In this document: positions 4,010 through 62,428 of the stretch, piece by piece
How positions within the stretch are numbered: position 1 is the stretch's first letter
Layout: each line of letters opens with the position of its first letter
Origin: a virus
DNA length: 62,781 nt
Reading direction: 5' to 3' (one strand)
IMG/VR virus record: IMGVR_UViG_3300036840_000070
Span: 1 to 62,781 of that record
Translations under genes and position numbers: made by a program
Notes under the pieces: generated by a model
The model's input: the letters and a program-made list of their open reading frames with translations, nothing else
What the model was told of the DNA's origin: nothing
The model's database searches: none

Positions 4010-4347
4010 CCGACGTCTACGTGTGCCCGCAGTGCAATTCCACGTCGCCCCGCCACCGCTGCCCGGTGGTGCCGCGCACGCCACCGATCAACGCGGGCTG
4101 CCCGCACCACGCCGAAGACGCCGTCTGCACCGAGTGCCCGGGGCACACGGCCACCGATGGCTATGGCTTCCCGCACCCGACGGAAGCCAAAGGCCTGCGC
4201 CGGCTGCAGCGGTGCAAACACTGCGGTGAGCTGATCGAGCCCCCGCACTGGGTGAACGACATCCGTGGCGCGTGGTTTGGCTGCGTGCCGTGCTTCAAGC
4301 GCGCGCAGCAGGTAGCCTCCGAGGGCGATGCCACGCCGAAGCCGTGA
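4006..4347 (+). CDS. Multi-zinc-finger protein, 113 aa, upstream of terminase
   Basis: Contains CPQCNSTSPRHRC, then CPHHAEDAVCTEC, then CKHCGELIEPPHW and CVPC: enough Cys/His pairs for two or three zinc sites. Overlaps the large terminase start by 20 bases. No family recognised. It may be a packaging accessory, judged only by position. Confidence 0.7.
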   Translation: MTDVYVCPQCNSTSPRHRCPVVPRTPPINAGCPHHAEDAVCTECPGHTATDGYGFPHPTEAKGLRRLQRCKHCGELIEPPHWVNDIRGAWFGCVPCFKRAQQVASEGDATPKP

Positions 4348-5839
4348 GCTCACCGAGGAGGAGATTGACCGCCGCGCGCGCGCGCGGCTGAGCGCGCTCG
4401 AGGACCAGGCGGAGCACGACCTGGGCTGTTTCATCGAGCTGCGCACGCCGCAGTACGACGCTCCCGAGCACCTGCGCCCGCTGCTGGACGCGCTGGACCG
4501 CAGCATGCGCGAGCCGGTGTTCGCGCTGGTGGAAGCGGCGCCGCGGCACGGCAAGACGGACACCATCCTGCACGGCTGCGCGCGGCGGCTGCGCTACCGC
4601 CCCGAAGATCATGTGCAGTACTGCACGTATTCGTCACCGCTGGCGTTCCGCAAGTCACGCAAGACCCGTGAGATAGCCGCGCGCGCAGGCGTGTGGATCG
4701 GTGACGAGGAGCGCCGGCGCAACCGCTTCGATGCCGCCAGCGCCGTGAGCTACTGGGAAACCATTCGCGGCGGCAGCTTCACCGCGGGCGGTCTGGCGGG
4801 GCAGTTCGTTGGCAGCGGCTCGAACCTGACGGTCTTCGACGATCCGTTCAAGAATCGCGATCAGGCTGAATCACCGGTGTATCAGGAGAAGGTGATGGAG
4901 ACCTGGAAGGGCTCCCTCGCCAACCGCATCGAGCCGGGTGGCTCAGCGTTCGTGACGCACCAGCCGTGGAACGATCTGGATCCCATCGCGCAGCTGCGCG
5001 CGGAGAAGGCGGGCGGTGATGGGCAGGATTGGGAGGTGATCAGCCTGCCCGCGGTGATCGATGCCGTCTACGACCGCGATGACAACCTGATCGGCGGCAT
5101 GCCGCTATGGCCCGCGCGCTGGACGCTGCGTGAGCTGGCGAAGGTCAAGCGGCGCGTCGGCCCCTACAACTGGTATTCGCAATATACGCTCGACCGCCGG
5201 CCGCGTGGCGACCGGCTCTTCCACGATCCCGCACGCTACGTCACGCCCACCGTGAACGGGGCCGTCGTGGTGATCAGCTGCGATCCCGGCATCGAGAAGG
5301 ACACGAAGCGCGACAGCAGCGGCATCGTGGTGGGCGCGTGCTACCGCAAGCCGAGCCCCTACCACCGCCCCGGCAAGCCGCATTATGAAGTCTGGATTGA
5401 CGTGCTGCTGGCGGTGGAGCAGTGGCGCGACATCCCCGATCTGGTGGACTACCTCGAGACCCTGCAGACGGACCCAGGCCACTACCCGGGGGCGCCCGTC
5501 ATCCTTGAGGAGGTCTCGGCCTTCAAGGCCCTGAGCCAGATCGCCAGCCGCGTCAACAGCCGGGCGCGGTTCTACCCGGTGACGCCGAAGGGAAACAAGT
5601 TCCTGCGCGCCCAGCCGGCGGCGCTGGCCTGGAATCAAGGGCGGATCCGGGTCCCGCTGGACGAGCCCTGGGCGCTGGATTTCATTCGCGAAGCCCAGCG
5701 GTTCACGGGACGTGAGGGCGGGCGGGACAATCGTGTTGACGCGCTGACCCAGCTTTATGACTATTGCGAGCGGCTGCTGGCCGCGTACGCGGAAGCGGTC
5801 TCGGGGGGCGAATCGATGATGGCATCGTCGCCCTTCTAG
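4328..5839 (+). CDS. terL: Terminase large subunit
   Basis: Packages DNA into the prohead with an ATPase and cuts it with an RNase H-fold nuclease. A 503-residue protein with Walker-A-like APRHGKTD at 71-78, Walker B VFDDPF at 169-174, nuclease VISCDPG with Asp319, and RDNRVDALTQ with a C-terminal Asp at 471. The order and length match phage large terminases. Starts at ATG 4328 within the end of the zinc-finger gene. It is separated from the portal by about 9.5 kb of small genes, a wide gap for this pair. Confidence 0.93.
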   Translation: MPRRSRELTEEEIDRRARARLSALEDQAEHDLGCFIELRTPQYDAPEHLRPLLDALDRSMREPVFALVEAAPRHGKTDTILHGCARRLRYRPEDHVQYCTYSSPLAFRKSRKTREIAARAGVWIGDEERRRNRFDAASAVSYWETIRGGSFTAGGLAGQFVGSGSNLTVFDDPFKNRDQAESPVYQEKVMETWKGSLANRIEPGGSAFVTHQPWNDLDPIAQLRAEKAGGDGQDWEVISLPAVIDAVYDRDDNLIGGMPLWPARWTLRELAKVKRRVGPYNWYSQYTLDRRPRGDRLFHDPARYVTPTVNGAVVVISCDPGIEKDTKRDSSGIVVGACYRKPSPYHRPGKPHYEVWIDVLLAVEQWRDIPDLVDYLETLQTDPGHYPGAPVILEEVSAFKALSQIASRVNSRARFYPVTPKGNKFLRAQPAALAWNQGRIRVPLDEPWALDFIREAQRFTGREGGRDNRVDALTQLYDYCERLLAAYAEAVSGGESMMASSPF

Positions 5840-10486: not shown

Positions 10487-10965
10487 TGCAGGAGAAGCTT
10501 CCCCGCGGCGCTGAGTGGCAGCCGCTGCCCGTGCCCCGCGTGCTGTGGACATCAAACACGCTCTCGGTCAGCCGCTGGCAGCGCGGGGCCGTGCTGGTGG
10601 TGAGCGCGCTCGAGGATGCCGAGCTGCCCGGCGCAGGCGGCGCCAGCGGGCCCACGTGGCACGTGTCCATCTCACGGCTGGGCAAGCGCCCGCGCCCGCG
10701 TGACGTGGCCCACGCGCTGCGTGACTTCGGCATGGTGGGGGCCGAGCAGGATAACCACCACCCGGGCGTGGCCCAGCATTACTTCATGCCCGTGGATCCG
10801 GCCTACCGCAGCGCGTGCGAATGCAAGACCACCGAGGATGTGATCGTGGAAGCGGACGGCTACACGTGGACGAACCCAAAGCTCGACGCGGTAGAAGGCT
10901 GCCGCGGCTGCGAATTCGAACGGCTGCAGGGCAAGCCCTGCCCCATTCACCAGAGCGTGACGTGA
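10486..10965 (+). CDS. Hypothetical protein, 159 aa, with C-terminal zinc-like motif
   Basis: Starts MQEKLPRGAEWQPLPVPRVL at a TGATG overlap. The body contains WHVSISRLGKRPRPRDVAHA, GMVGAEQDNHHPGVAQHYFM and a C-terminal CECK ... CRGCEFERL ... CPIH. A beta-rich N-terminal domain plus a Cys/His cluster. Similar pieces occur in phage proteins of unknown function. Confidence 0.65.
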   Translation: MQEKLPRGAEWQPLPVPRVLWTSNTLSVSRWQRGAVLVVSALEDAELPGAGGASGPTWHVSISRLGKRPRPRDVAHALRDFGMVGAEQDNHHPGVAQHYFMPVDPAYRSACECKTTEDVIVEADGYTWTNPKLDAVEGCRGCEFERLQGKPCPIHQSVT

Positions 10966-11651
10966 CGGAGCAAGACTACGGGATCTTTCTGCCGCGCCCC
11001 GACCCAGCGGACGTGGCGGCGCTGGACGCCGAGTGCTTCCGCGATGGCCTGCTGCGCGTGCCGCCAGCCAGCTTCTACGCGCGCTTTGATCAGAACGCGC
11101 TGTCGGCGTGGTGCGTCGTGCGTGGCCTCTATCTACTGCCCACGCTCGAGCTGGTCAGCCTGCTGCGCACCATGATCGGCGAAGACCGCGCGATCGAGGT
11201 GGCTGCGGGCAACGGTGCGCTCGGGCGCGCGCTGGGCATTCCGGTGACCGATTCGCGACAGCATGAGCAACCCGACGTCGCGCGCTTCTACGCGCAGGTG
11301 GGCCAGGCAGTGACGCCCTATGCCCCGGATGTGGAGCGCCTCACCGCCATCGAAGCGGTGGACAAATACCGACCGCAGGTGGTGCTGGGCTCCTGGATCA
11401 CGCATCGCTTCGATGAGCGCTACCCGCAGCGCGGGGGCAACCCGGATGGCGTGGACTGCGTTGAATTATACGGCCGTGCATTCGTGCAGACGATCATCCT
11501 GATCGGGCACGAGCGCGTGAACCGCTACCAGCCGCTGCTGCAGCAGCCACACACCACGCTGCGCCCGCCAGGGATGCTCTTCGCGCGCCCGCTCGATGCG
11601 GGGCTGAATGTCATCTGGGTATGGGACAAAGCGACGGACGCGAACCGATGA
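10962..11651 (+). CDS. SAM-dependent methyltransferase-like protein
   Basis: GTG start. A 229-residue protein with IEVAAGNGALGRAL, a good match to the glycine-rich SAM-binding loop of class I methyltransferases, then VDKYRPQVVLGSWIT in the place of motif IV. No DPPY-like motif, so the substrate is probably not a DNA base; similar phage and plasmid proteins are annotated only as class I methyltransferases. It would be a fourth methyltransferase in this genome. Confidence 0.65.
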   Translation: MTEQDYGIFLPRPDPADVAALDAECFRDGLLRVPPASFYARFDQNALSAWCVVRGLYLLPTLELVSLLRTMIGEDRAIEVAAGNGALGRALGIPVTDSRQHEQPDVARFYAQVGQAVTPYAPDVERLTAIEAVDKYRPQVVLGSWITHRFDERYPQRGGNPDGVDCVELYGRAFVQTIILIGHERVNRYQPLLQQPHTTLRPPGMLFARPLDAGLNVIWVWDKATDANR

Positions 11652-20278: not shown

Positions 20279-21364
20279 ATGACTTCATCAGCACTCAAAA
20301 TCCCTGCTGGGCTCGGTGGCATGCAGCAGATCACCCTCCGCCTGGCGGAGGACAACGAATACGGCAAAGCCGGATCCGTCGTGCGCCTCGCGCTGTACCC
20401 GGGCGACGTCACCATCAGCGAGGAGATGGACACCTTCCTGGTGGCCTTCTCACCGCCGGAATTCCGCGCCGATGACGTGTGCCCGATCCAGCTCGTGGAT
20501 AAGGATACGGGCAAGTATCGCATCTTTGGTCTCAACAACGCTTTCCGCGCGGTCAACGTGCTGAGCTCGATCCAGGCAGACATTCCTGAGGTCGACGTCG
20601 ACACCACGCTGGCGGACTACGCGGTGCAGGAGCGCGCGCTTGGCGGCTTCGTGCCCACGGTCACGGAGATCAACGCGGCAGCAGGCTCTAGCTCATGGGA
20701 TCCGCGCACCGCGCTCGCGCGCCGCATCGGCTGGGCGCTGGCGCTGGACCGCGAGATTCGCGTGTGGACGATGCTGAAGACGGCGGCTTCGTGGAACGCG
20801 AACAACCGCGCCACCATCAGCGCGGGAGCTGAGTGGAACGACATCGAGAATGGCGATCCGATGCTGGACATCATGGACCGCATCCAGGCGTCAGCGCAGC
20901 CGGTGACGGACATCTGGGTGAACCCACCCGTCGCGCACGCGATGCTGCGCAGCAAGGCAGTGCGCGAACACATGCGCACGCTGGCGGGCGATTCACAGCT
21001 GCCCGCGCAAATCGCTCAGGCCACCGCCACGCAGCGCCAGATGGATTTCCAGATCCCGGGCTTGCCCCCCATCCACGTGGTGGGCAGCAAGGTGCTGAAC
21101 GAGACCACGGGCGTGCCCGACTGGATCTTGGATGACACCGTCATCCTGACGTCCCGCGGCGGCGGCGGCGCGGTGGGCGATGAGATCATGACGTGCAAGA
21201 CGTTCCGCCGGCGGGGGCCCTCGGGAACGGGCTTCACCACGCGCGAATTCCCGCTCGATCGGCGCGGCCTGCACGGCGGCACGTTCATGGCCTCGGGCCA
21301 CGCCGAGCAGGTCGTCATGGTGGCGGGCACCGTGGGCGGCGCCATCTACGACGTGCTGCAGTGA
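20279..21364 (+). CDS. Major capsid protein
   Basis: A 361-residue protein following the scaffold and decoration genes. It shows the usual features of an HK97-fold capsid protein: an N-terminal arm region with GKAGSVVRLALYPGDVTISE, a central helix with WDPRTALARRIGWALALDRE and VTDIWVNPPVAHAMLRS, then a DDTVILTSRGGGGAVGDEIM segment. Ribosome-binding site AGGA precedes ATG 20279. Identification rests on position, size and fold-like pattern. Confidence 0.85.
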   Translation: MTSSALKIPAGLGGMQQITLRLAEDNEYGKAGSVVRLALYPGDVTISEEMDTFLVAFSPPEFRADDVCPIQLVDKDTGKYRIFGLNNAFRAVNVLSSIQADIPEVDVDTTLADYAVQERALGGFVPTVTEINAAAGSSSWDPRTALARRIGWALALDREIRVWTMLKTAASWNANNRATISAGAEWNDIENGDPMLDIMDRIQASAQPVTDIWVNPPVAHAMLRSKAVREHMRTLAGDSQLPAQIAQATATQRQMDFQIPGLPPIHVVGSKVLNETTGVPDWILDDTVILTSRGGGGAVGDEIMTCKTFRRRGPSGTGFTTREFPLDRRGLHGGTFMASGHAEQVVMVAGTVGGAIYDVLQ

Positions 21365-23343: not shown

Positions 23344-23383
23344 TGCACGGGTGCACGGCTGCACGAATGCACGGAGGGACGCA
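23344..23383 (+). repeat. Octamer array R2: five 8-bp units
   Basis: Octamers at 23344, 23352, 23360, 23368 and 23376: TGCACGGG, TGCACGGC, TGCACGAA, TGCACGGA, GGGACGCA. As in R1, the final A is the first base of the next ATG (23383), and the last two units make its GGAGGG ribosome-binding site. Confidence 0.9.
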
Positions 23384-23736
23384 TGGGTAACACGGCAAAG
23401 GCCAGGCACCGGCGCAGGCGCCGCGCGCGCCGCCGGCAGGAGCAGATCAACCGGACGGCGGCGCAGCTGGCGCGGCAGGTGCTCGGGCGCGATCCCGCGT
23501 GGCATGAGGTGACCGTCGAATACGACCGCGGCTACTACGTGGTGCGCGTGGACGGCGTGATCGTGCGGGAGGGCAACACGCTGCGCGCGCAGGCGCGGGT
23601 GCCCTTCAGCCTGCACGCGGAGGGGCCCCTGCTGAACTTCTTCGCGTGGCCGATGCCTGGGCGCACCGAGGGCATCCTCACCACCACCAGCGAGCCCCCG
23701 GGGAAGGCGCCCCTGCAGCGCTTCGAGCATGGCTGA
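23383..23736 (+). CDS. Hypothetical basic protein downstream of octamer array R2
   Basis: Starts MGNTAKARHRRRRRARRRQE; the very basic N-terminus could bind nucleic acid. A beta-rich part follows (YDRGYYVVRVDGVIVREGN). The open frame extends upstream only through the octamers, so ATG 23383 with GGAGGG is preferred. Overlaps the next gene by eight bases. Function unknown. Confidence 0.6.
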   Translation: MGNTAKARHRRRRRARRRQEQINRTAAQLARQVLGRDPAWHEVTVEYDRGYYVVRVDGVIVREGNTLRAQARVPFSLHAEGPLLNFFAWPMPGRTEGILTTTSEPPGKAPLQRFEHG

Positions 23737-24695: not shown

Positions 24696-25058
24696 ATGAG
24701 CGACGTCGAGGGGTTTGGGTTGTTCGTCAGCAGCGTCGAAGGTCAGCCGGTGCATCGCTTCGGCTCGCCAACGATCCTCATCGGCGCGGACCGCAACCCC
24801 GACGAGCCGCGGAAGATCATCTACCGCACCCAGGAGGTGGTGGGGATCCCGCGCGCAGAGGCTCAGCGGTACGCGCGCGAATACGCGCGGGCCATCGCGG
24901 ATGGCGCGCTCACCGAGCGCACCGCGGAGGAGTATCGTAGGCAGCAGCAGTCATCCACCACCGAGGGAGGCGCACCTCGCGAAACGCAGGAGCTGACGGC
25001 TCCGGCAGAACAGCGAGCGCAGAGTGGCCCTTCCGAAAGCGGTAGCCAGCTCGGTTAA
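24696..25058 (+). CDS. Mu gp38-like small protein, 120 aa
   Basis: MSDVEGFGLFVSSVEGQPVH, with a helical middle (RAEAQRYAREYARAIADGAL) and a low-complexity polar tail. Its place immediately before the sheath, overlapping it by 35 bases, corresponds to gp38-like genes of Mu-type phages. The second copy of the 20-bp hairpin repeat (24962-24981) lies in its 3' part. Confidence 0.6.
   Translation: MSDVEGFGLFVSSVEGQPVHRFGSPTILIGADRNPDEPRKIIYRTQEVVGIPRAEAQRYAREYARAIADGALTERTAEEYRRQQQSSTTEGGAPRETQELTAPAEQRAQSGPSESGSQLG
24962..24981 (+). repeat. 20-bp repeat CGAGGGAGGCGCACCTCGCG, copy 2
   Basis: Identical to 19796-19815, including similar flanking CATCCAC. Here it lies within a coding region about 60 bases before the sheath start. 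Confidence 0.7.
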
Positions 25059-26532
25059 AGCACCGGGCTTCTATCTACTGATCAACCTGCTGGCGTCGCC
25101 CGCCAACCCGGGCACCGCAGCGAACCGGGCGCTGATCATGGCGCCCAAATCCAGCGCTGGAAACATCACCGCGAACACCGAGGTGCGCACATGCTTTGGG
25201 CCCACCGACGTGGCCACTGCGCTCGGGCCCGGCACGCCGGGGCACCTGGCAGCCAAGCGCCTGTTTCAGCGCTTCGGCACGGCATCCGTGGACGTCATCG
25301 CGCCCACGGCTAGCGGCGGCGCGGCAGCGAGCGGCACGCAAACCTTCAGCGGCACCGCGACAGAGAACAGCACCATCCGTCTAAGGGTACACGGGCGCAC
25401 GATCGATGTGCCGTGGCTCAGCGGCGAAGCGGCTGCTGCGTTTGCGACGCGAGCCTCGAGCTACGTCAATCAGCTGGGCGATGACCTATTCGTGACCACG
25501 TCACCCAGCACCGCGAGCGTGGTGTACACCGCGAAGATCGCGGGGCCCTGGGGCAACGACGTCACCCTCAACGCCAGCATCGTGGCGGGCGGCGGCGGCA
25601 TCACCATCAGCGCCAACCCGACGAACCTGACGGGCGGCACCACCGAGCCTAGCTTCGCGACGGCGCTGGCCACCATCGCAACGCGCGAATACCGCCGGAT
25701 CATCCCGTGCCTGAGCAACGCGGACGCGGCGGACACCAGCTCGAGCAGCAACGCCGAGCGCCTCGCGAACCACATCAATCAATACGAGCTCGGCGCGGGC
25801 GCGCTGCTGCAGGTGGGCGTCGTGGGCATGACGGGAACCACCACGAACGCGAAGGCGGGCGCCATCGACCGCAACAACGAGGCGATGGAGTATGTGCTCG
25901 GGCGCGGCTGGGATGACCTGCCCGCTGAGCTCGCCGGCGCGGAAGCGGGGGATGCGCTGCGGTGGATCGCGATCCGACCGAATTACAACCGCATCGGCAA
26001 CACGCACACGCTCTACGGTCCGCGTGACGTGGTGACAAACAAGCTCACCGATGCGGAGAAGGAGGATCTGCTCGCCAACGGCGTCACGCCGCTGGACGTG
26101 GATTCGATCACCGGCACGCCTTTCCTGGTGCGCCCGATCACCACTCACTCGGTGAGCGGCAGCACGCCGGATTATCGCGCGTTCGATCTGTCCGATGTGG
26201 ATGCGGTGTACAGCATCTTTCAAGACCTCCGCACCGCCACGCCGCAGCAGTTCGCGAACGCGAGCGTGACGGCAGACCAGCCCGCGGGCAGTGACCCGCT
26301 GCCGCCTGGCGTCGTGGAGGTGAAGGACATCCGCGCCTTCGTGATCAGCCGCCTGCGCTTCTGGGCGCGGCAGGGCGTGCTCAATAAGAGCGCGCTGGAC
26401 ACGGCCATCGATAACAACGAGCTGGCCGTTGAAATCGACGCGAGCGACGGAAGCCAGGTCAACATCTTCGTGCCGATGACGGTGATCAAGCCGCTGGCGA
26501 AGTTCAGCGCGGTGGGCAGCAAGGCCGCGTGA
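25024..26532 (+). CDS. Contractile tail sheath protein
   Basis: Polymerises around the tube and contracts on infection. A 502-residue protein with the sheath pattern: N-terminal KAPGFYLLINLLASPANPGT, the insertion domain with beta strands, then a C-terminal part with NIFVPMTVIKPLAKFSAVGS. The GTG start lies within the previous gene. Followed directly by the tube gene. Its presence shows that the virion is a myovirus. Confidence 0.9.
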   Translation: MALPKAVASSVKAPGFYLLINLLASPANPGTAANRALIMAPKSSAGNITANTEVRTCFGPTDVATALGPGTPGHLAAKRLFQRFGTASVDVIAPTASGGAAASGTQTFSGTATENSTIRLRVHGRTIDVPWLSGEAAAAFATRASSYVNQLGDDLFVTTSPSTASVVYTAKIAGPWGNDVTLNASIVAGGGGITISANPTNLTGGTTEPSFATALATIATREYRRIIPCLSNADAADTSSSSNAERLANHINQYELGAGALLQVGVVGMTGTTTNAKAGAIDRNNEAMEYVLGRGWDDLPAELAGAEAGDALRWIAIRPNYNRIGNTHTLYGPRDVVTNKLTDAEKEDLLANGVTPLDVDSITGTPFLVRPITTHSVSGSTPDYRAFDLSDVDAVYSIFQDLRTATPQQFANASVTADQPAGSDPLPPGVVEVKDIRAFVISRLRFWARQGVLNKSALDTAIDNNELAVEIDASDGSQVNIFVPMTVIKPLAKFSAVGSKAA

Positions 26533-32660: not shown

Positions 32661-32848
32661 GGTGGCTCAGAAGCCCAGCCCCGGTGGCTCAGAAGCCCAC
32701 CGAAAATGGGCCTGCGGTGGCTCAGAAGCCCAGCCCCGGTGGCTCAGAAGCCCAGGCTCGAAAATACCAGCCCCCGATCCCTCAAATGCCCAGCAGCAAG
32801 ATCCCTCAAATGCCCAAGGCGGCTCCGTGCCGGTGGCTCAGAAGCCCA
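32661..32848 (+). repeat. Plasmid-type iterons upstream of the TrfA-like gene
   Basis: Five perfect copies of GGTGGCTCAGAAGCCCA start at 32661, 32683, 32716, 32738 and 32832. Spacings of 22, 33 and 22 bases between the first four keep them on one helical face. Two copies of a related 17-mer, GATCCCTCAAATGCCCA, start at 32776 and 32800; both types share CTCA and GCCCA. Iterons ahead of an initiator gene define a plasmid origin. Apparent open frames through this region only translate the repeats. Confidence 0.92.
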
Positions 32849-32931
32849 GCCAAAAATGCCTGAAATGGTGTGAAATATACCCGCGGGCCAGCGGCCCTGG
32901 TAGATCGCAGGCCCACGCAATGGAGGCGCCC
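32661..32931 (+). other. Predicted plasmid replication origin (oriV)
   Basis: The seven iterons plus a short A+T-richer stretch (CAAAAATGCC ... GTGAAATATAC, 32851-32880) directly before the initiator gene. This is the usual layout of an iteron-controlled origin with autoregulated initiator expression. No exact DnaA box was found by eye. Confidence 0.75.
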
Positions 32932-33825
32932 ATGGCTAGGATTCCACCCGATCCCGTTATCGAAAGGCTGGCGAGCGAAGCCCAGGCTCAGCAGGAAGCG
33001 ATGCGCGCTGCGCTCGAGGAAGCCCGGGAACGGGCGCGCGTGTATCAGCTTGCCTTCTGGCCCGATCACGAGCGGGCCATGCCTGGTGACTTCATCGCGT
33101 GCGCCCTATTCACCGCGAGCCGAGCGACTGCCTTCGTCACGCGGTCACAGCTGGCCAGCATCAATGGCCTGAGCGTACTCTTCACCGGCAAGCGGCTGAC
33201 TCAGGTCCATGCTGACGTCTGGATGGGCATCATGCATCTAGCCCGCCAGCGGCGCGAAGGTGACGTGGTCTGGTTCCGCGATCGGCAACTGCTCGAGCTC
33301 ATCGGACGGCACACGCACCAGGGTCAACGTGAGCAGCTGAAGGACTGGCTATCGCAGCTCACGGCAACCGAGGTGCTCGTGCAGGATGACGTCCGAGGGC
33401 GCCGTTTCGGCGGATCGCTGCTGCCGTGGCGGGTCGAAGCGGACGCTGACGGGAACACGATCTATGCGGTCGACATCAGCCGCGAACTGGCAAAGCTGCT
33501 GTCCGAGCGCCAACCGATGATCGATTGGGAGCTGCGCAAACGGCTGCAAAACAAGCCGCTGGCGCTTTGGTTGCAGACTTACTTCGCGCGATTCAGCAAA
33601 CCGGTCTCGGTGGCGCAGCTGCACGCGCTGTCCGGATCCACTGCGCAGCTCAAAGAATTTCGGCGCAAGCTCACGCGCGCGTTGAAGGATCTGCAGGTAG
33701 CTGGCGGACCCAGCGCTGGCATCGAGCGCGGCGCCGACACCGTGGTGATCTTCCGCCCCGTGACGCGTCCGCGGCGCGTCCGCCATGAAGGCCAGGCGGT
33801 GCTGCCCTTCGCGAAGCCCCGGTGA
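32932..33825 (+). CDS. trfA: Plasmid replication initiator, TrfA family
   Basis: Binds iterons and opens the origin. A 297-residue protein from ATG 32932, which has GGAGG five bases before it (an in-frame ATG at 32920 is less likely). The central part matches TrfA: QLAFWPDHERAMPGDFIACA, LFTASRATAFVTRSQLASIN, GLSVLFTGKRLTQVHADVWM, then two winged-helix-like regions. It lies 80 bases after the last iteron. A plasmid initiator inside a tail operon is unusual. The identification is strong on pattern. Confidence 0.88.
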   Translation: MARIPPDPVIERLASEAQAQQEAMRAALEEARERARVYQLAFWPDHERAMPGDFIACALFTASRATAFVTRSQLASINGLSVLFTGKRLTQVHADVWMGIMHLARQRREGDVVWFRDRQLLELIGRHTHQGQREQLKDWLSQLTATEVLVQDDVRGRRFGGSLLPWRVEADADGNTIYAVDISRELAKLLSERQPMIDWELRKRLQNKPLALWLQTYFARFSKPVSVAQLHALSGSTAQLKEFRRKLTRALKDLQVAGGPSAGIERGADTVVIFRPVTRPRRVRHEGQAVLPFAKPR

Positions 33826-34632: not shown

Positions 34633-34956
34633 ATGGCGTTGCTTGCGGGAAGCGTCAGCATCAATAGCGGCACGGGTGCAGCCACGGGCACGGGGCTGGC
34701 TAAGGAGCTGTACGATGCGCTCGCGGCGGCGCTGCAGGTCACGCCCGCCCAGGTGCCGCAGAACGTGCCGAAGGCGCAGCAGCAGGTGGCGCTCATCGCA
34801 GGCACCATCGCCAGCGTGGTGGTGGCGCACATCAAAGCGAACGCCGTGGTGACCAGCACCGTCGCTGCCGGGATCGCGGTGAGCACCACCGGCACCGCCG
34901 CCGCGCAGACGGGCACCACCACCGCCACCGGCAGCGCCACAGGGACGATCGCGTGA
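34633..34956 (+). CDS. Phage hypothetical protein, Ala/Thr-rich, 107 aa
   Basis: MALLAGSVSINSGTGAATGT, then helical ELYDALAAALQVTPAQVPQN and a Thr/Ala/Gly tail. Similar short proteins lie near baseplate genes in other phages. Leaderless start. Its end overlaps the next start. Confidence 0.6.
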   Translation: MALLAGSVSINSGTGAATGTGLAKELYDALAAALQVTPAQVPQNVPKAQQQVALIAGTIASVVVAHIKANAVVTSTVAAGIAVSTTGTAAAQTGTTTATGSATGTIA

Positions 34957-35135
34957 TGGGTGCCGGGACGGTCTTCGTGCTGATGGCGATCGTCGCGCTG
35001 GCGCTGGCGTGGCCGTGGATCAAGCGCCGTCACGCCTATGGCGAGTGTGACCACTGCGGCGCGCCCATCCCCCGCGTCGGGCCCTGGTTCGCCAAACGCC
35101 GCGTGCAGGCCATCTGCGATGACTGCCTGCGCTGA
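34956..35135 (+). CDS. Membrane-anchored zinc-ribbon protein, 59 aa
   Basis: An N-terminal hydrophobic segment (GTVFVLMAIVALALAWPW) is followed by CDHCGAPIPRVGPW and CDDC, a four-Cys zinc ribbon on the cytoplasmic side. GTG 34953 directly precedes ATG 34956. Octamer array R3 follows. Unknown role. Confidence 0.6.
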   Translation: MGAGTVFVLMAIVALALAWPWIKRRHAYGECDHCGAPIPRVGPWFAKRRVQAICDDCLR

Positions 35136-35175
35136 CGCACGTCCGTGCATCCGTGCATCCGTGCATAGGTGCAAC
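35136..35175 (+). repeat. Octamer array R3 (inverted orientation)
   Basis: Units at exact 8-bp steps from 35136: CGCACGTC, CGTGCATC, CGTGCATC, CGTGCATA, GGTGCAAC. Here the octamer is mostly reversed (CGTGCA). It leads directly into the Leu/Pro-repeat gene. Confidence 0.85.
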
Positions 35176-37754: not shown

Positions 37755-38066
37755 ATGTGGGCATCCTTCGCAGACTGGCTGTTTTCGCAGGCGCCCACGA
37801 TCACCGTGCTGGGGATCTGGGTGATCAGCTTGCACGTGATCTTGAGAGAACGCTCGAAGCGTATCCAGCAATTGGAGACGCGGAGCGACGCGCTATCCGC
37901 CTCATTGGCGGAGCTCGTGCAATCGAACTCGCGCGAGCGTGCGGAGCGAGTCACGCTGCAGATCACGAATCTAGAATCGCTGATGCGGAGCGCGTTCGAA
38001 ACGCTGCTGAGAGCATTGGAGCGCAGGCCACCCGCGTTGCTGAAGCGCTCGAGCGGGGGCCCGTGA
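37755..38066 (+). CDS. N-anchored coiled-coil membrane protein (holin- or spanin-like)
   Basis: Residues about 10-30 (APTITVLGIWVISLHVILRE) form one membrane span, followed by a long charged coiled coil (SKRIQQLETRSDALSASLAE). This is the architecture of inner-membrane spanins or of Mu-type lysis accessory proteins. It sits beside the receiver gene and close to the endolysin, so a lysis role is possible but not shown. Confidence 0.5.
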   Translation: MWASFADWLFSQAPTITVLGIWVISLHVILRERSKRIQQLETRSDALSASLAELVQSNSRERAERVTLQITNLESLMRSAFETLLRALERRPPALLKRSSGGP

Positions 38067-38557
38067 GCGAAGGCAAGCCGCTGGTGCTGGTGGTGGAGGA
38101 TGACCGCCAGGTGCAGCGGATCGTGCATCGCTTCCTCGAGCGGGCCAGCTACGACGTGGTGCTGTGCATGGACCTCGACGAGGTGGTGGCGCAGCTGGAC
38201 GCGGGCGTGGCGCCCGCGCTGGTGCTGTGCGACTGGACGCTGCCGGGCATGACGGGGCGGGCGGTGGCGCTCACCGTGCGGCGCCGCCTGCCGGGCACGC
38301 CGGTCCTGTACATGAGCGGCTTTGAGGAGATCGAGGGCATCGATCCGAGCGAACCGCTGTTGCGCAAGCCCTTTCGTGGCGATGAGCTGGTGGCCGTGGT
38401 GCGGCGCGTGCTCGAAGCAGGCACCATCGACGTGCTGCTGGGCGACGAAGCGCGCCACGCGCCGCGGGCTGACGTGAGCGGACAGCACCGCATCGTGACC
38501 GTGAGCGCTGACGAGCTCACGCGCGCCCGCGAGCAGACGCGCCGCCGCCCGCGCTAG
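38063..38557 (+). CDS. CheY-like response regulator receiver protein
   Basis: GTG start. A 164-residue protein with all receiver residues: the acidic pair at D13/D14 in VVEDDRQ, phospho-acceptor D57 in LCDWTLPGMTG, S85 in LYMSGFEE, and K102 in LRKPF. The receiver fills residues 7-120; the basic 40-residue tail matches no output domain. Host-derived signalling domains are rare in phages. Overlaps the endolysin stop by four bases tail to tail. It might intercept host phosphorelay signals; the target is unknown. Confidence 0.88.
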   Translation: MSEGKPLVLVVEDDRQVQRIVHRFLERASYDVVLCMDLDEVVAQLDAGVAPALVLCDWTLPGMTGRAVALTVRRRLPGTPVLYMSGFEEIEGIDPSEPLLRKPFRGDELVAVVRRVLEAGTIDVLLGDEARHAPRADVSGQHRIVTVSADELTRAREQTRRRPR

Positions 38558-39195
38558 CGCGTGCCGTATGCCAGCGCTCCCGTGATCAGCGGGATGTCAG
38601 GATGCACGATCACGCCGGGGCAGCGCCCCGTCACGTCAGCCACCGTGCGCGCGAAGCGCAGCCCCACCATCGGCCGGCGCGTGCAGCGGACGCGGTTGTT
38701 GCTGTTGGCTTCGATGCCCATCACCTCGGCTGGCGTCACGCCGATGGGCGTGATCCCCGTCACCACCCAGACGTGCCCGTGCACGCTGTCCGTCGGGTAC
38801 CACGCCAGGTCACCCGCCATCGGGTTGTTCGTGGAGGGAAACATCTTCCCGAGCGCCTGCGCGCTGGCGCAGCGGACGGGCGTGCCCAGCCCGAAGGTGA
38901 GGCAGTGGCTCGCGTACGCTGCGCACCATGGATCGCCACCGCGCGCGCCGCAGATCTGCAGCATCCCCTGGATGATCCCGAGCGGCTCCGTGTTGCTGCC
39001 GATCGGATCCTCTACGAGCCCCAGGTGCTTCTGCGCCGCGCGGATGATCGCACGCCGATGCGGGTGCAGCGTCTCGTAGTCCATCGCCCAGCGCGTCTGA
39101 GGACCGAGATCGCCATCGACCTTCAGCGGTTTGCCGAGGTGGTTTTTGTGCCGCGCTTGGAACGCGCGCACCTCATCGCTGCTCAGGTCAGCCAT
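38554..39195 (-). CDS. Endolysin: peptidoglycan-binding domain plus CHAP amidase/peptidase
   Basis: Degrades the cell wall at lysis. Residues 5-38 (SSDEVRAFQARHKN ... VDGDLGPQTRWAM) are a PG_binding_1 repeat; residues 80-190 are a CHAP domain with Cys91 in DPWCAAYASHC and His141 in HGHVWVVTG, the catalytic pair. No signal peptide, so it needs a holin or similar. A CAGTCT box lies six bases before the ATG and an extended -10 (TGATATGGT) farther upstream. Confidence 0.87.
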   Translation of the reverse strand: MADLSSDEVRAFQARHKNHLGKPLKVDGDLGPQTRWAMDYETLHPHRRAIIRAAQKHLGLVEDPIGSNTEPLGIIQGMLQICGARGGDPWCAAYASHCLTFGLGTPVRCASAQALGKMFPSTNNPMAGDLAWYPTDSVHGHVWVVTGITPIGVTPAEVMGIEANSNNRVRCTRRPMVGLRFARTVADVTGRCPGVIVHPDIPLITGALAYGTR

Positions 39196-46052: not shown

Positions 46053-46138
46053 GCCCCGGTGATCGGCCGTGTCCGTGGCTCCTAGAGGCGAGACCGGCCC
46101 TGCGCCTGTTAGGCACGATTTGTTGCCCCGTTCCGGAT

Positions 46139-46195
46139 GCACGGTGCTACACGGTGCACGGTTGCACGTATGGCCGTTTGCACGTATGCACGGCA
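46139..46195 (+). repeat. Octamer array R4, upstream of parA
   Basis: TGCACGGT at 46139, then after a 1-bp slip, units at 46156, 46164, 46172, 46180 and 46188: TGCACGGT, TGCACGTA, TGGCCGTT, TGCACGTA, TGCACGGC. It ends 16 bases before the parA ATG and so covers the likely promoter. Candidate centromere and operator. Confidence 0.88.
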
Positions 46196-46211
46196 CAACA
46201 AAGGGATCACC

Positions 46212-46946
46212 ATGTTTAGCGTTGCGGTGCTGCACCAGAAGGGCGGCAGCGGGAAGACCACGCTCGCGATCTGCCTGGCGGCGGCGGCTCACCTCGAGGG
46301 CCACCGGACCACGCTCATCGATCTAGATTCGCAGGCCAGCGCGCTGGCGTGGAGCGCTGAGCGCCCAGAAGGCTCACGCCTGGCGGGCATCAGCGTGGCC
46401 CTGGCGGTAGCGCCCAGCCACCGCAAGGTGCCGCTCTCGAGCCTGCGCGATCTGACCGCGGCCTATGACGTGGCCATCCTCGATGGTCCCGCGCGTGAGC
46501 CGGGCATCACGCGCAGCGCCGCAGCCTTCGCTGACGTGGCGCTGGTGCCCATCGCCCCGGGCCCGACCGATCTGTGGTCCGTGCGCGATACGGTCGAATC
46601 GCTGGACGCGGCCGATGAGGTGCGCGCAGATCTGGGGCTGCCCCCCGTGCGCCGCGCCTTCGTGGTGAACGCCGCGCGCAAGGGCAGCGTGCTGCAGCGC
46701 GAGGCGCAGGCGGAGATTGAAGCCAGCCTCGGCGACTGCCTGGGCACCGTCCATCACCGCGTTTCGCTGCCGGCTGCGCTCAGCCGTGGCGAGACCGTGC
46801 TCACCCTGCCCGTGGCCACGGAGGCCGCGGTCGAAATCACGCGCCTGTGGCGCGCACTGAAAGGAGCCTATGCCGCTCAGCTCAAAGCCGAAGCACCGCG
46901 CCGCCCGCGAGGCGGAGGTCGAAGAAACGTCGCGCTTCGCCGCTGA
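46212..46946 (+). CDS. parA: ParA-type partition ATPase
   Basis: Segregates low-copy replicons by ATP-driven binding to the nucleoid. A 244-residue protein with deviant Walker A KGGSGKTT (10-17), Walker A' LIDLDSQ (35-41) and Walker B VAILDGPA. No N-terminal DNA-binding domain, so it is the small type (Ib). AAAGGG precedes the ATG. The small RHH gene overlaps its end, as in other ParA-RHH pairs. Direct evidence that the circle is maintained as a plasmid. Confidence 0.9.
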   Translation: MFSVAVLHQKGGSGKTTLAICLAAAAHLEGHRTTLIDLDSQASALAWSAERPEGSRLAGISVALAVAPSHRKVPLSSLRDLTAAYDVAILDGPAREPGITRSAAAFADVALVPIAPGPTDLWSVRDTVESLDAADEVRADLGLPPVRRAFVVNAARKGSVLQREAQAEIEASLGDCLGTVHHRVSLPAALSRGETVLTLPVATEAAVEITRLWRALKGAYAAQLKAEAPRRPRGGGRRNVALRR

Positions 46947-47055
46947 CATTCCGAAGCGCATCCACAAAGCGATCCGCATGAAGTGTATCGAGCTCGACGT
47001 GGACCAGCGGCAGCTGGTGCTGATGGCCCTGCGTGAGCAGTACGGGATCAAATGA
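46870..47055 (+). CDS. Ribbon-helix-helix partition partner (ParB/ParG-like)
   Basis: A 61-residue protein. A basic, flexible N-terminus (MPLSSKPKHRAAREAE) is followed by TSRFAADIPKRIHKAIRMKC and then IELDVDQRQLVLMALREQYG: one beta strand and two helices of an RHH fold. Overlaps parA by 77 bases; AAAGGAG lies before its ATG. The flexible N-terminus is typical of partners that stimulate the ParA ATPase. It would dimerise and bind the TGCACGNN octamers. Confidence 0.8.
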   Translation: MPLSSKPKHRAAREAEVEETSRFAADIPKRIHKAIRMKCIELDVDQRQLVLMALREQYGIK

Positions 47056-47333
47056 GCACCAGCACCACCACCATGACCGAAGACGAGCGCGCGATCTGGC
47101 GGGCTGCCTACGCGGCCGCGTTCGTGAGCGATCTGCATTCCACCGTAGGCTTTTACCTCGAGCAGAGAGCGCCGAGCGCGTTCGATCGCGCGATGCAGAG
47201 TATTGCCGCCGAGAACGCCATCGGCATCGCTGACGCGGCGGTGCGCCGGCTGCGGCAATGGCGCGAACGGGAGCAGCCGCTGGCGGGCGCTGAGCTCGGC
47301 AGCTGGCCGAAGGACTGGGAACCGGACGAATGA
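47052..47333 (+). CDS. Third gene of the partition operon, 93 aa
   Basis: MSTSTTTMTEDERAIWRAAY, mostly helical (FDRAMQSIAAENAIGIADAA). ATGA overlap with the RHH gene, and array R5 starts at its stop. No family recognised. Helical segments and the charged end could mean a DNA- or protein-binding accessory. Confidence 0.6.
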   Translation: MSTSTTTMTEDERAIWRAAYAAAFVSDLHSTVGFYLEQRAPSAFDRAMQSIAAENAIGIADAAVRRLRQWREREQPLAGAELGSWPKDWEPDE

Positions 47334-47378
47334 ACGAATGCACGGACGGCCGTATGCACGTCCGTGCATCCGTGCTGA
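47331..47378 (+). repeat. Octamer array R5, downstream of the par operon
   Basis: Units at 47331, 47339, 47347, 47355, 47363 and 47371: TGAACGAA, TGCACGGA, CGGCCGTA, TGCACGTC, CGTGCATC, CGTGCTGA. The orientation flips after the fourth unit, giving the palindrome ATGCACGTCCGTGCAT. It lies between converging genes. Confidence 0.85.
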
Positions 47379-61075: not shown

Positions 61076-62428
61076 GTGGGGCAAGCGAAGAGCAGCAAGG
61101 GCGGCGCTGCACGTGCAGCGCGTGGCAAGGGCAAGGCTGAGGGCGCGGGCAAGGGCAGCGCGCCGCCGCCATCGCTAGGGCTGGTGGAGGGCCTGGTGCC
61201 CAGCAGCGATCCCACCGCCCCTGACTTCGCCTGGTGGCCCATCGATCGCGTGAGGCCCTGGGTGCAGAACCCTCGCAAGAACGCGCGCGCGGTGCCGAAG
61301 GTAGCCGACAGCATTCGCACCTTCGGCTGGGGCAGGCCGCTCGTGGTCAACATGTGGCCCGGGTGTGAGGGTGAGCTGATCATCGGGCACACGGCGTGGC
61401 TGGCCGCGCAGGAGCTGAGCCTCGAGCGGGTGCCGGTGCGCATCCGCAAGATGGACCCTGCAGCCGCGCACGCGCTGGCGATCGCGGATAACAAGCTGGG
61501 TGAGATCAGCGACTGGGATCCCGATGAGCTCGGGCGCATCGTGGGCTCGGGTGAGATCAGCGCAGCGCACCTCGAGGTGGCGGGCTTCAGCGCGGCGGAG
61601 CTGCGCGCGCTGGACGGTCATCCGCAGATGGACGATGACGACGTGCCCGCACCGCCCGCGGTGCCCATCACGCAGCCTGGTGATCTGTGGCTGCTGGGTG
61701 AGCACCGCCTGCTCTGCGGTGACAGCACGCGCGCTGACCACGTGCAGCTGGTGCTCGCTGGCGGGCAGCCCGAGCTCATGGTGACGGATCCGCCCTATGG
61801 CGTCAGCCTGGACAGCACGTGGCGCGACGAATTCTCACCGGTGAAACAGAAGCACACGGGCAAGATCAGCAACGATACCCGGAACGATTGGACGGAGGCG
61901 TGGGCCCTCTTCAAAGGAAGCGTCGCGTACGTGTGGCACGCGGGCGTCTACGGTGCCGAGGTGGCCGCGCATCTGGCGCGCACGAAGCTGTTCGTGAGGC
62001 AGCAGATCATCTGGGCGAAGGCGGCGCTGGTCATGAGCCGCGGGAACTACCACTGGCAGCACGAGCCGTGTTGGTATGTGGTGCGCAAGGGCAGCACCGC
62101 GAATTGGATCGGTGGGCGTAAGCAGACCACGCTCTGGCAGATCCAATCGAAGGTGGGCTTCACGCAGAAGGGCAACGAGGACATGGACACCACGCACGGC
62201 TCGCAGAAGCCGCTGGAATGCATGGCCCGCCCGATCCGCAACCACCGCGGTGACGTGTACGATCCCTTCATGGGCAGCGGCACCACGCTGATCGCAGCGC
62301 AGAAGCTCGGGCGGCGGTGCTACGGGCTCGAGCTCGAGCCGGCGTATTGCGACGTGATCGTGGCGCGGTGGAAGGCGCTAACGGGCGGTGAGCCCCGGCG
62401 CATCGTGGCGGGTGAGGCTGCGGCGTGA
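61076..62428 (+). CDS. ParB-domain DNA methyltransferase
   Basis: A 450-residue fusion. After a basic Gly/Ala/Lys N-terminus, residues 52-140 form a ParB/sulfiredoxin-like domain (WWPIDRVRPWVQNPRKNARA, then ELIIGHTAWLAAQELSLERV). Residues 205-435 form a beta-class amino-methyltransferase with TDPPYG (DPPY 238-241) and SAM-binding DPFMGSGTT (396-404). Such fusions are common in phages and modify adenine or cytosine. The GTG start is preceded by a likely leaderless promoter. Its stop overlaps the D12 gene start. Confidence 0.88.
   Translation: MGQAKSSKGGAARAARGKGKAEGAGKGSAPPPSLGLVEGLVPSSDPTAPDFAWWPIDRVRPWVQNPRKNARAVPKVADSIRTFGWGRPLVVNMWPGCEGELIIGHTAWLAAQELSLERVPVRIRKMDPAAAHALAIADNKLGEISDWDPDELGRIVGSGEISAAHLEVAGFSAAELRALDGHPQMDDDDVPAPPAVPITQPGDLWLLGEHRLLCGDSTRADHVQLVLAGGQPELMVTDPPYGVSLDSTWRDEFSPVKQKHTGKISNDTRNDWTEAWALFKGSVAYVWHAGVYGAEVAAHLARTKLFVRQQIIWAKAALVMSRGNYHWQHEPCWYVVRKGSTANWIGGRKQTTLWQIQSKVGFTQKGNEDMDTTHGSQKPLECMARPIRNHRGDVYDPFMGSGTTLIAAQKLGRRCYGLELEPAYCDVIVARWKALTGGEPRRIVAGEAAA

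Follow-up and report, generated by a model that had tools for sequence, protein, structure and literature searches.

A parA-RHH gene pair bracketed by octamer arrays

The DNA analyzed here, referred to as the window, is a whole virus record of 62,781 bp without end repeats. At 46-47 kb it carries parA, an overlapping gene encoding an RHH protein and a third small open reading frame (ORF), bracketed by two arrays of TGCACGNN octamers, R4 upstream and R5 downstream. This arrangement, put forward in the original prediction, was confirmed by gene calls and by array scores above their nulls. The features of the locus are as follows.

46138-46192, + strand: array R4, five exact TGCACG units and one degenerate unit, upstream of parA
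46212-46946, + strand: parA, 244 aa, small ParF-type Walker ATPase
46870-47055, + strand: RHH gene, 61 aa, candidate centromere-binding protein
47052-47333, + strand: third ORF, 93 aa, acidic (pI 4.8)
47331-47376, mixed orientation: array R5, in the downstream intergenic gap

The start of parA (ATG 46212) is consistent with the starts in related viruses. The encoded protein carries a Walker A motif (HQKGGSGKTT, residues 8-17), has no N-terminal DNA-binding extension and matches phrog_164 in PHROGs at 1.5e-33 and ParF in PDB at 2.2e-12. It had been proposed as a partition ATPase, and its likeness to ParF bears this out; judged by its sequence, it is a small deviant-Walker ParA of type Ib partition.

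The RHH gene overlaps the 3' end of parA by 77 bp and has AAGGAG right before its ATG. Its product had no match in Pfam, in PHROGs or, as a single sequence, in PDB. The 101 window proteins were searched with a 16-row profile of parA partners, picked by their position behind parA and including no window member; the comparators were a hand-chosen, non-random set drawn from 4,424 plasmid and 201 phage records, with pMF1 and weak plasmid matches added. The RHH protein matched with an E-value of 1.9e-7, and the next best protein with 0.08. A second profile of 11 rows, composed of the window RHH protein, those of three relatives and seven plasmid partners, reached ParG (1.6e-8) and omega (5.8e-5) in PDB and, more weakly, the ParD and VapB antitoxins. 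The RHH protein had four distinct weak plasmid matches: an annotated parA immediately precedes two of them, and a third, from Zymomonas, follows a parA-like reading that is broken and unannotated. AlphaFold, run on the RHH protein alone as a single sequence, was uninformative: its model had three helices but lacked a strand, at a mean pLDDT of 71.6. By profile and by its conserved place beside parA in three relatives, the product is predicted to be a small RHH partner of ParA, in agreement with the role anticipated for it.

The start codon of the third ORF and the stop codon of the RHH gene overlap in ATGA. Pfam, PHROGs, plasmids and viral contigs all lacked a match to this ORF, its single-sequence AlphaFold model was uninformative, and it is missing from all three relatives that carry par genes (G017, G019 and G020). 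It had been suggested as a new partition component; since it is unmatched and absent from these relatives, nothing marks it as one, and it is probably a passenger or accessory gene, not a core partition gene. The same properties bear on another reading of the three genes, as a toxin-antitoxin or other regulatory operon with the arrays as its operators. Antitoxins often have an RHH fold, the weaker profile matches to ParD and VapB are in line with this, and a small ORF follows the RHH gene with a 4-bp overlap. Yet the operon includes a ParF-type ATPase, and the third ORF is acidic, has no Pfam or PHROGs family and is absent from relatives that retain the parA-RHH pair. We consider an operon of this type very unlikely.

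Within R4, exact TGCACG units start at 46138, 46155, 46163, 46179 and 46187 and a degenerate TGGCCG at 46171; 19 bp separate the end of the array from the parA ATG, and no match to a sigma-70 promoter was found at R4. R5 is made up of TGAACG at 47331, TGCACG at 47339 and 47355 and inverted units at 47363 and 47371, with one degenerate position in the array. Both arrays predicted to delimit the locus are real, with the amendment that the R4 unit at 46138 is off register by one base and that R5 is of mixed orientation. Judged by their sequence and place, these tandem short repeats at the operon are centromere candidates of the type Ib kind. The octamer period upstream of parA was also compared with 736 control stretches: of 16 hand-picked comparators, 9 were at or above the controls' 95th percentile and 7 fell below it.

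A gene at 61076-62428 was also considered as a partition ParB and was dismissed because its ParB-like domain is fused to a DNA methyltransferase (phrog_498) and because it is absent from G020. This fusion of a ParB-like nuclease domain and a methyltransferase is 81% identical in G017.

A contractile-tail phage genome with a TrfA-type replicon

Gene calls and family searches identified the window as a contractile-tail phage. Its landmarks and its putative replicon are listed below.

4328-5839: terminase
20321-21364: major head protein
25024-26532: sheath
32661-32848, + strand: iteron cluster before trfA, candidate plasmid origin
32920-33825, + strand: TrfA-type plasmid replication initiator, 301 aa

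Further virion genes encode a portal, minor head protein, protease, tape measure and baseplate, and the DNA-handling genes comprise a RecE-like exonuclease, RecT, DnaB helicase and RuvC. The GC content is 68%, and about 10% of the window is non-coding. Because its two end genes stand side by side in G019, the window is probably a near-complete myophage genome, circular or permuted. The sheath had no match among 50,697 phage or 72,556 plasmid records, and the window could therefore not be assigned to a described phage. A pattern scan of genome contigs for the lineage confirmed 0 of 46 stretches, and no host, plasmid record or genome record of the lineage was found.

The TrfA-type protein matches Pfam TrfA at 1.2e-4, just under the cut-off, and plasmid TrfA in 501 records (tblastn, best 2e-30), with no match in the 50,697 phage records. 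The iterons before it include five copies of GGTGGCTCAGAAGCCCA (steps of 22, 33, 22 and 94 bp) and two of GATCCCTCAAATGCCCA. Repeats also precede trfA in G019 (four, at 21-22-bp steps), G017 (three, at 32-bp steps) and G020 (three, with TCAGAAGCCC common to G020 and the window). The gene and its iterons (32661-33825) are located inside the virion gene block; in G021, a relative devoid of par genes, the gap between the baseplate hub and the next gene holds an unrelated opposite-strand HTH protein, not trfA.

No tyrosine or serine recombinase (Phage_integrase, Resolvase) was found in any of ten genomes, namely the window and nine long relatives, and no protelomerase was seen in the window. Virion and packaging genes, a plasmid initiator with iterons and par genes are present together with no integration module. 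The TrfA replicon, the par genes and the absence of recombinases lead us to read the window as a phage-plasmid, the anatomy indicated by its gene content. A non-exhaustive literature search found no phage-plasmid with a TrfA-type initiator, and this virus family and its layout are undescribed in the collections searched. With its sheath and TrfA unmatched in the phage collection, the window points to a phage-plasmid lineage in which a plasmid-type TrfA initiator is paired with a ParA-RHH module.

Octamer arrays recur across the genome

Beyond the par locus, four further sites carry the octamer.

878-947, + strand: array R1, eight units with at most one mismatch
11475-11488, - strand: weak and doubtful site, two exact units inside gene 10962-11651
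23344-23373, + strand: array R2, four exact units, intergenic, between two genes of the virion block
35136-35173, - strand: array R3, five units, two of them with one mismatch, in a virion-block gene gap

R1 lies outside genes unless a weak ORF at 877-1137 is real, the gaps that hold R2 and R3 measure about 40 bp, and the units of R3 are mostly opposite in orientation. Across all window arrays, TGCACGNNTGCACG with 1 mismatch has 21 matches against 1.87 expected, a count reached in 0 of 100 shuffles. We scored four-unit arrays against the best of 30 order-3 Markov genomes (25.4) and obtained 36-40 for R1-R3, 31.4 for R4, 26.3 for R5 and 28.6 for the 11.5-kb site. Positions 2, 4 and 5 of TGCACG (G, A and C) are invariant in 26 units, drawn from R1-R5, that have one mismatch or none. 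In a genome this rich in GC, with other, coding periodicities of 6 and 9 bp, the arrays could in principle be chance or low-complexity repeats. Against this, six places in the window beat the best Markov genome, and a period of 8 (at least 18/24) occurs at three places in the window and nowhere in the nine other long genomes. An origin by chance is hardly credible.

The arrays fall at about 0.9, 11.5, 23.4, 35.2 and 46-47 kb, leaving gaps of 10.6-11.9 kb and one of 16.9 kb; assessed post hoc, this even spacing has a P value of 0.003 with the weak 11.5-kb site and 0.036 without it. The candidate centromere, as predicted from these repeats, is spread across the genome and not confined to the par locus. 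R1, R2 and R3 adjoin genes (877-1300, 23383-23736 and 34956-35135, respectively) that are unmatched in the three par-bearing relatives, as if arrays and neighboring accessory genes had come together.

The location of R2 and R3 in short gaps between virion-block genes also fits a reading in which the main role of the RHH protein is repression across the genome: R1-R3 would silence late genes in a stoperator-like manner, with partition secondary or local to R4 and R5. In the portions of the literature available to us, the RHH protein ParB of pSM19035 controls copy-number genes too (PMC9499535), late gene expression is facilitated by the N15 Sop system according to the title of a cited paper, and the stoperators of cluster A mycobacteriophages are intergenic and genome-wide (PMC5559632). 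On the other hand, R3 is mostly opposed to R1 and R2 in direction, yet the neighboring genes are co-directional; R2 and R3 lie within gene runs with no evident promoter; and the par genes and arrays co-occur with trfA, a plasmid trait. A mainly repressive protein is in our judgment unlikely, and repressor and partition roles may coexist.

The octamer motif co-diverges with the RHH strand in related viruses

Searches of viral contigs with ParA, RHH or terminase patterns returned one distant ParA and no close relatives. Relatives were found by the sheath protein, which recovered 15 viral contigs, nine of them long (47.9-66.7 kb) and six short (4.4-16.5 kb), the latter being uninformative on the presence of par or trfA. 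Both parA and trfA occur in the three closest relatives (G017, G019 and G020) and neither occurs in the other six long ones, where a ParA family model gave no match while controls were detected. This trait needs one change on the sheath tree, which has few well-supported branches. ParA is 63, 49 and 44% identical to its homologs in the three par-bearing relatives; in all three the RHH ORF starts at or within the parA end and octamers flank the parA-RHH pair.

The RHH strand reads SRFAADIP in the window and SRFVADIP in G019 (group SRF[A/V]ADIP), and KRLHADIP and KRLHGDIP in G017 and G020, respectively (group KRLH[A/G]DIP). The octamers follow, with TGCACG in the window, TG[G/C]ACG in G019, GTMCCC in G017 and GGTCCC in G020. 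Strand and motif split the genomes into the same two groups, window with G019 and G017 with G020, and this co-divergence indirectly supports binding of the octamers by the RHH protein. A blind hexamer search exceeded the maximum of 24 shuffles in the window (43 vs 36), G019 (42 vs 37), G020 (43 vs 37) and, by a one-point margin, G017 (39 vs 38); it yielded CGTGCA for the window and CGTCCA for G019. The four par-bearing genomes, whose RHH strands diverge in step with their octamers, form a natural set for studying how an RHH partition protein chooses its DNA.

Motif seeds for G017, G019 and G020 were chosen by eye from the par flanks, so that matches at the relatives' par flanks are partly circular; distal matches are not. 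The G019 motif was found at six places in the window and at four in its own genome, and the other eight genomes lacked it; the window motif was found at six places in the window and one in G019, with further hits just above the null in relatives without par genes (one each in G022 and G029, three in G023). Scans with GTMCCC gave six places in G017 and two borderline ones in G021, and scans with GGTCCC six in G017, three in G020 and one in G022. Distal arrays score above the null in all four par-bearing genomes, but only the window and G019 provide convincing ones; the distal site of G020 is also a long inverted repeat and could be a terminator, and that of G017 is C-rich. Arrays in the relatives are shorter and broken, none passing a plain lag-8 threshold, and the downstream array of G017 lies partly within the RHH 3' end. 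A TATAGG-like hexamer, noted by eye, stands directly before the array in G017 and G020.

The original prediction had placed the likely centromere in the arrays at the par locus. The part that concerns the flanks of parA-RHH holds in all three relatives, with a motif that tracks the RHH strand, whereas the strongest arrays, R1-R3, lie elsewhere. Co-divergence also weighs on another reading, in which the octamers serve replication (as iterons) or packaging instead of partition, as short tandem repeats scattered over a replicon might: the octamer motif diverges together with the RHH strand, and a separate set of iterons, at 22-bp steps, is found at trfA. We therefore regard replication or packaging sites as highly improbable.

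In G017, G019 and G020 (L058, L062 and L065), some 110-140 bp ahead of parA, there is one palindrome that nearly copies chromosomal parS (GTTTCACGTGAA, exact or with one mismatch). It is the sole such site in each relative's genome and does not occur in the window; Markov genomes hold 0.25-0.95 each. The sites differ from the chromosomal parS 16-mer by 3-4 mismatches and are possibly a hook for a host ParB, or an operator.

Scanning viral contigs for three copies of TGCACGNN gave 13 stretches, and one of the 13 records (G007) has a ParA gene with a small ORF behind it. It was rejected as a par-array match: the array sits at the contig end, which puts it about 1.8 kb before parA only in a circular contig, and the surroundings of this parA showed no array of period 8. 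The small ORF of G007 is one of the 16 rows of the partner profile and had no other use.

Comparison with known partition systems

Statements on published systems refer to the portions of the cited papers available to us. RedRock-type phages are alike in being integrase-less and in carrying parA, then a small DNA-binding partner, with octamer arrays on both sides; RedRock ParB recognizes parS-L and parS-R, each of eight direct 8-bp copies, flanking the genes, and the relatives Miko and Rachaly have an extra parS beside repA (PMC7157519). Unlike the window, they are mycobacteriophages, their repeats are different and their origins are RepA- or RNA-based; the available text mentions no arrays through virion genes (PMC7157519). 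In the record of Jeeves, a phage of this type, the parA partner is named 'Arc-like repressor' and a period of 8 is present upstream of parA. RedRock-type cluster A mycobacteriophages are siphophages, whereas the window has a contractile tail, a TrfA replicon and three to four distal arrays.

The parCAB locus of pMF1 from Myxococcus fulvus likewise combines ParA, a small octamer-binding ParB and a third small acidic gene, as far as described in the available text (PMC3235114, PMC7843461). Its ParB (86 aa as annotated, 75 aa in the text of PMC3235114) autoregulates. The 8-bp iterons that it binds lie on either side of the operon (ItA upstream, ItB downstream) and at scattered sites (ItC-ItF), and when parA and parB are lacking, par expression increases more than 200-fold (PMC3235114). 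In contrast to the window, pMF1 is a plasmid, not a phage, and its motif is AGATGTCT; its parC lies upstream of parA and is reported there as required for active ParA, whereas the third gene of the window is last and unconserved. We rejected the third ORF as a ParC counterpart for lack of similarity, its downstream place and its absence from the relatives. Published examples exist both of octamer arrays flanking a phage parAB and of a plasmid with scattered octamers, and with RedRock-type phages and pMF1, for which binding was measured, as direct precedents the locus is a variation on a known system, not a new sort.

TP228 ParFG and pSM19035 delta-omega share with the window a ParF-like ATPase, an RHH partner, tandem short repeats and promoter-overlapping sites, and differ, in the text at hand, in being plasmids, with seven-bp repeats in pSM19035 (PMC5016525, PMC9499535). 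Full ATPase activation by pSM19035 ParB is reported to take at least four contiguous repeats (PMC9499535), a minimum reached by R1, R2 and R3 (R3 with two one-mismatch units). The closest phage ParA proteins in the collection searched are those of phiHAP-1 and VP882, at 36 and 35% identity to the window ParA. Both phages have a small partner gene directly 3' of parA and contractile-tail genes, and both differ in having a protelomerase, a linear plasmid prophage and other replication genes. SopB of N15 belongs to a different class of centromere-binding protein. N15 Sop is alike in belonging to a phage-plasmid with several centromere sites per genome (four separate inverted-repeat centromeres) and, in the available text, unlike in its inverted-repeat sites and linear prophage (PMC7205306).

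A candidate type Ib partition module of a phage-plasmid

We think it very probable that the locus serves a phage-plasmid as its partition module, of type Ib (ParA-RHH), in which the RHH protein would bind the octamers as both centromere and parA operator. From genes, arrays, replicon and the co-occurrence and co-divergence in relatives, all read from the DNA itself, and by analogy with measured systems, we infer RHH binding, repression, ATPase activation and a plasmid state. Dimers of the 61-aa RHH protein would stack on the 8-bp-spaced hexamers of the TGCACGNN octamers. On R4 they would turn off the parA-RHH promoter, and on R4, R5 and R1-R3 they would form partition complexes on the phage DNA. 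The RHH N-terminal tail would stimulate the ParF-like ATPase on the nucleoid, and sister copies would be separated. In the prophage state, copies would be made by the TrfA-iteron replicon at 32.7-33.8 kb, allowing inheritance as a low-copy plasmid without integration; inside its host, the virus probably persists as a plasmid that is inherited independently.

A further, speculative possibility, held with low confidence, is that one RHH protein at evenly spread arrays acts as both multi-centromere and virion-gene silencer, in a myophage lineage that gained or lost the module together with the TrfA replicon. If true, prophage partition and lytic switch would share one set of dual-role sites. The intergenic arrays among virion genes make lytic-gene control by centromere proteins a testable question.

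Three other features of the window were recorded. A protein with sigma-70 region 4 is encoded at 2362-2892, upstream of terminase, is kept in G017, G019 and G020, and is a possible activator of late genes. The gene at 38063-38557, with PHROGs families of unknown function, probably encodes a response-regulator receiver domain; the Pfam match (Response_reg, 6.7e-14) was obtained for its 32-protein batch with the member not named. Finally, a predicted tRNA-Ser (cga) at 38857-38951 overlaps an opposite-strand CHAP-domain gene at 38554-39195.
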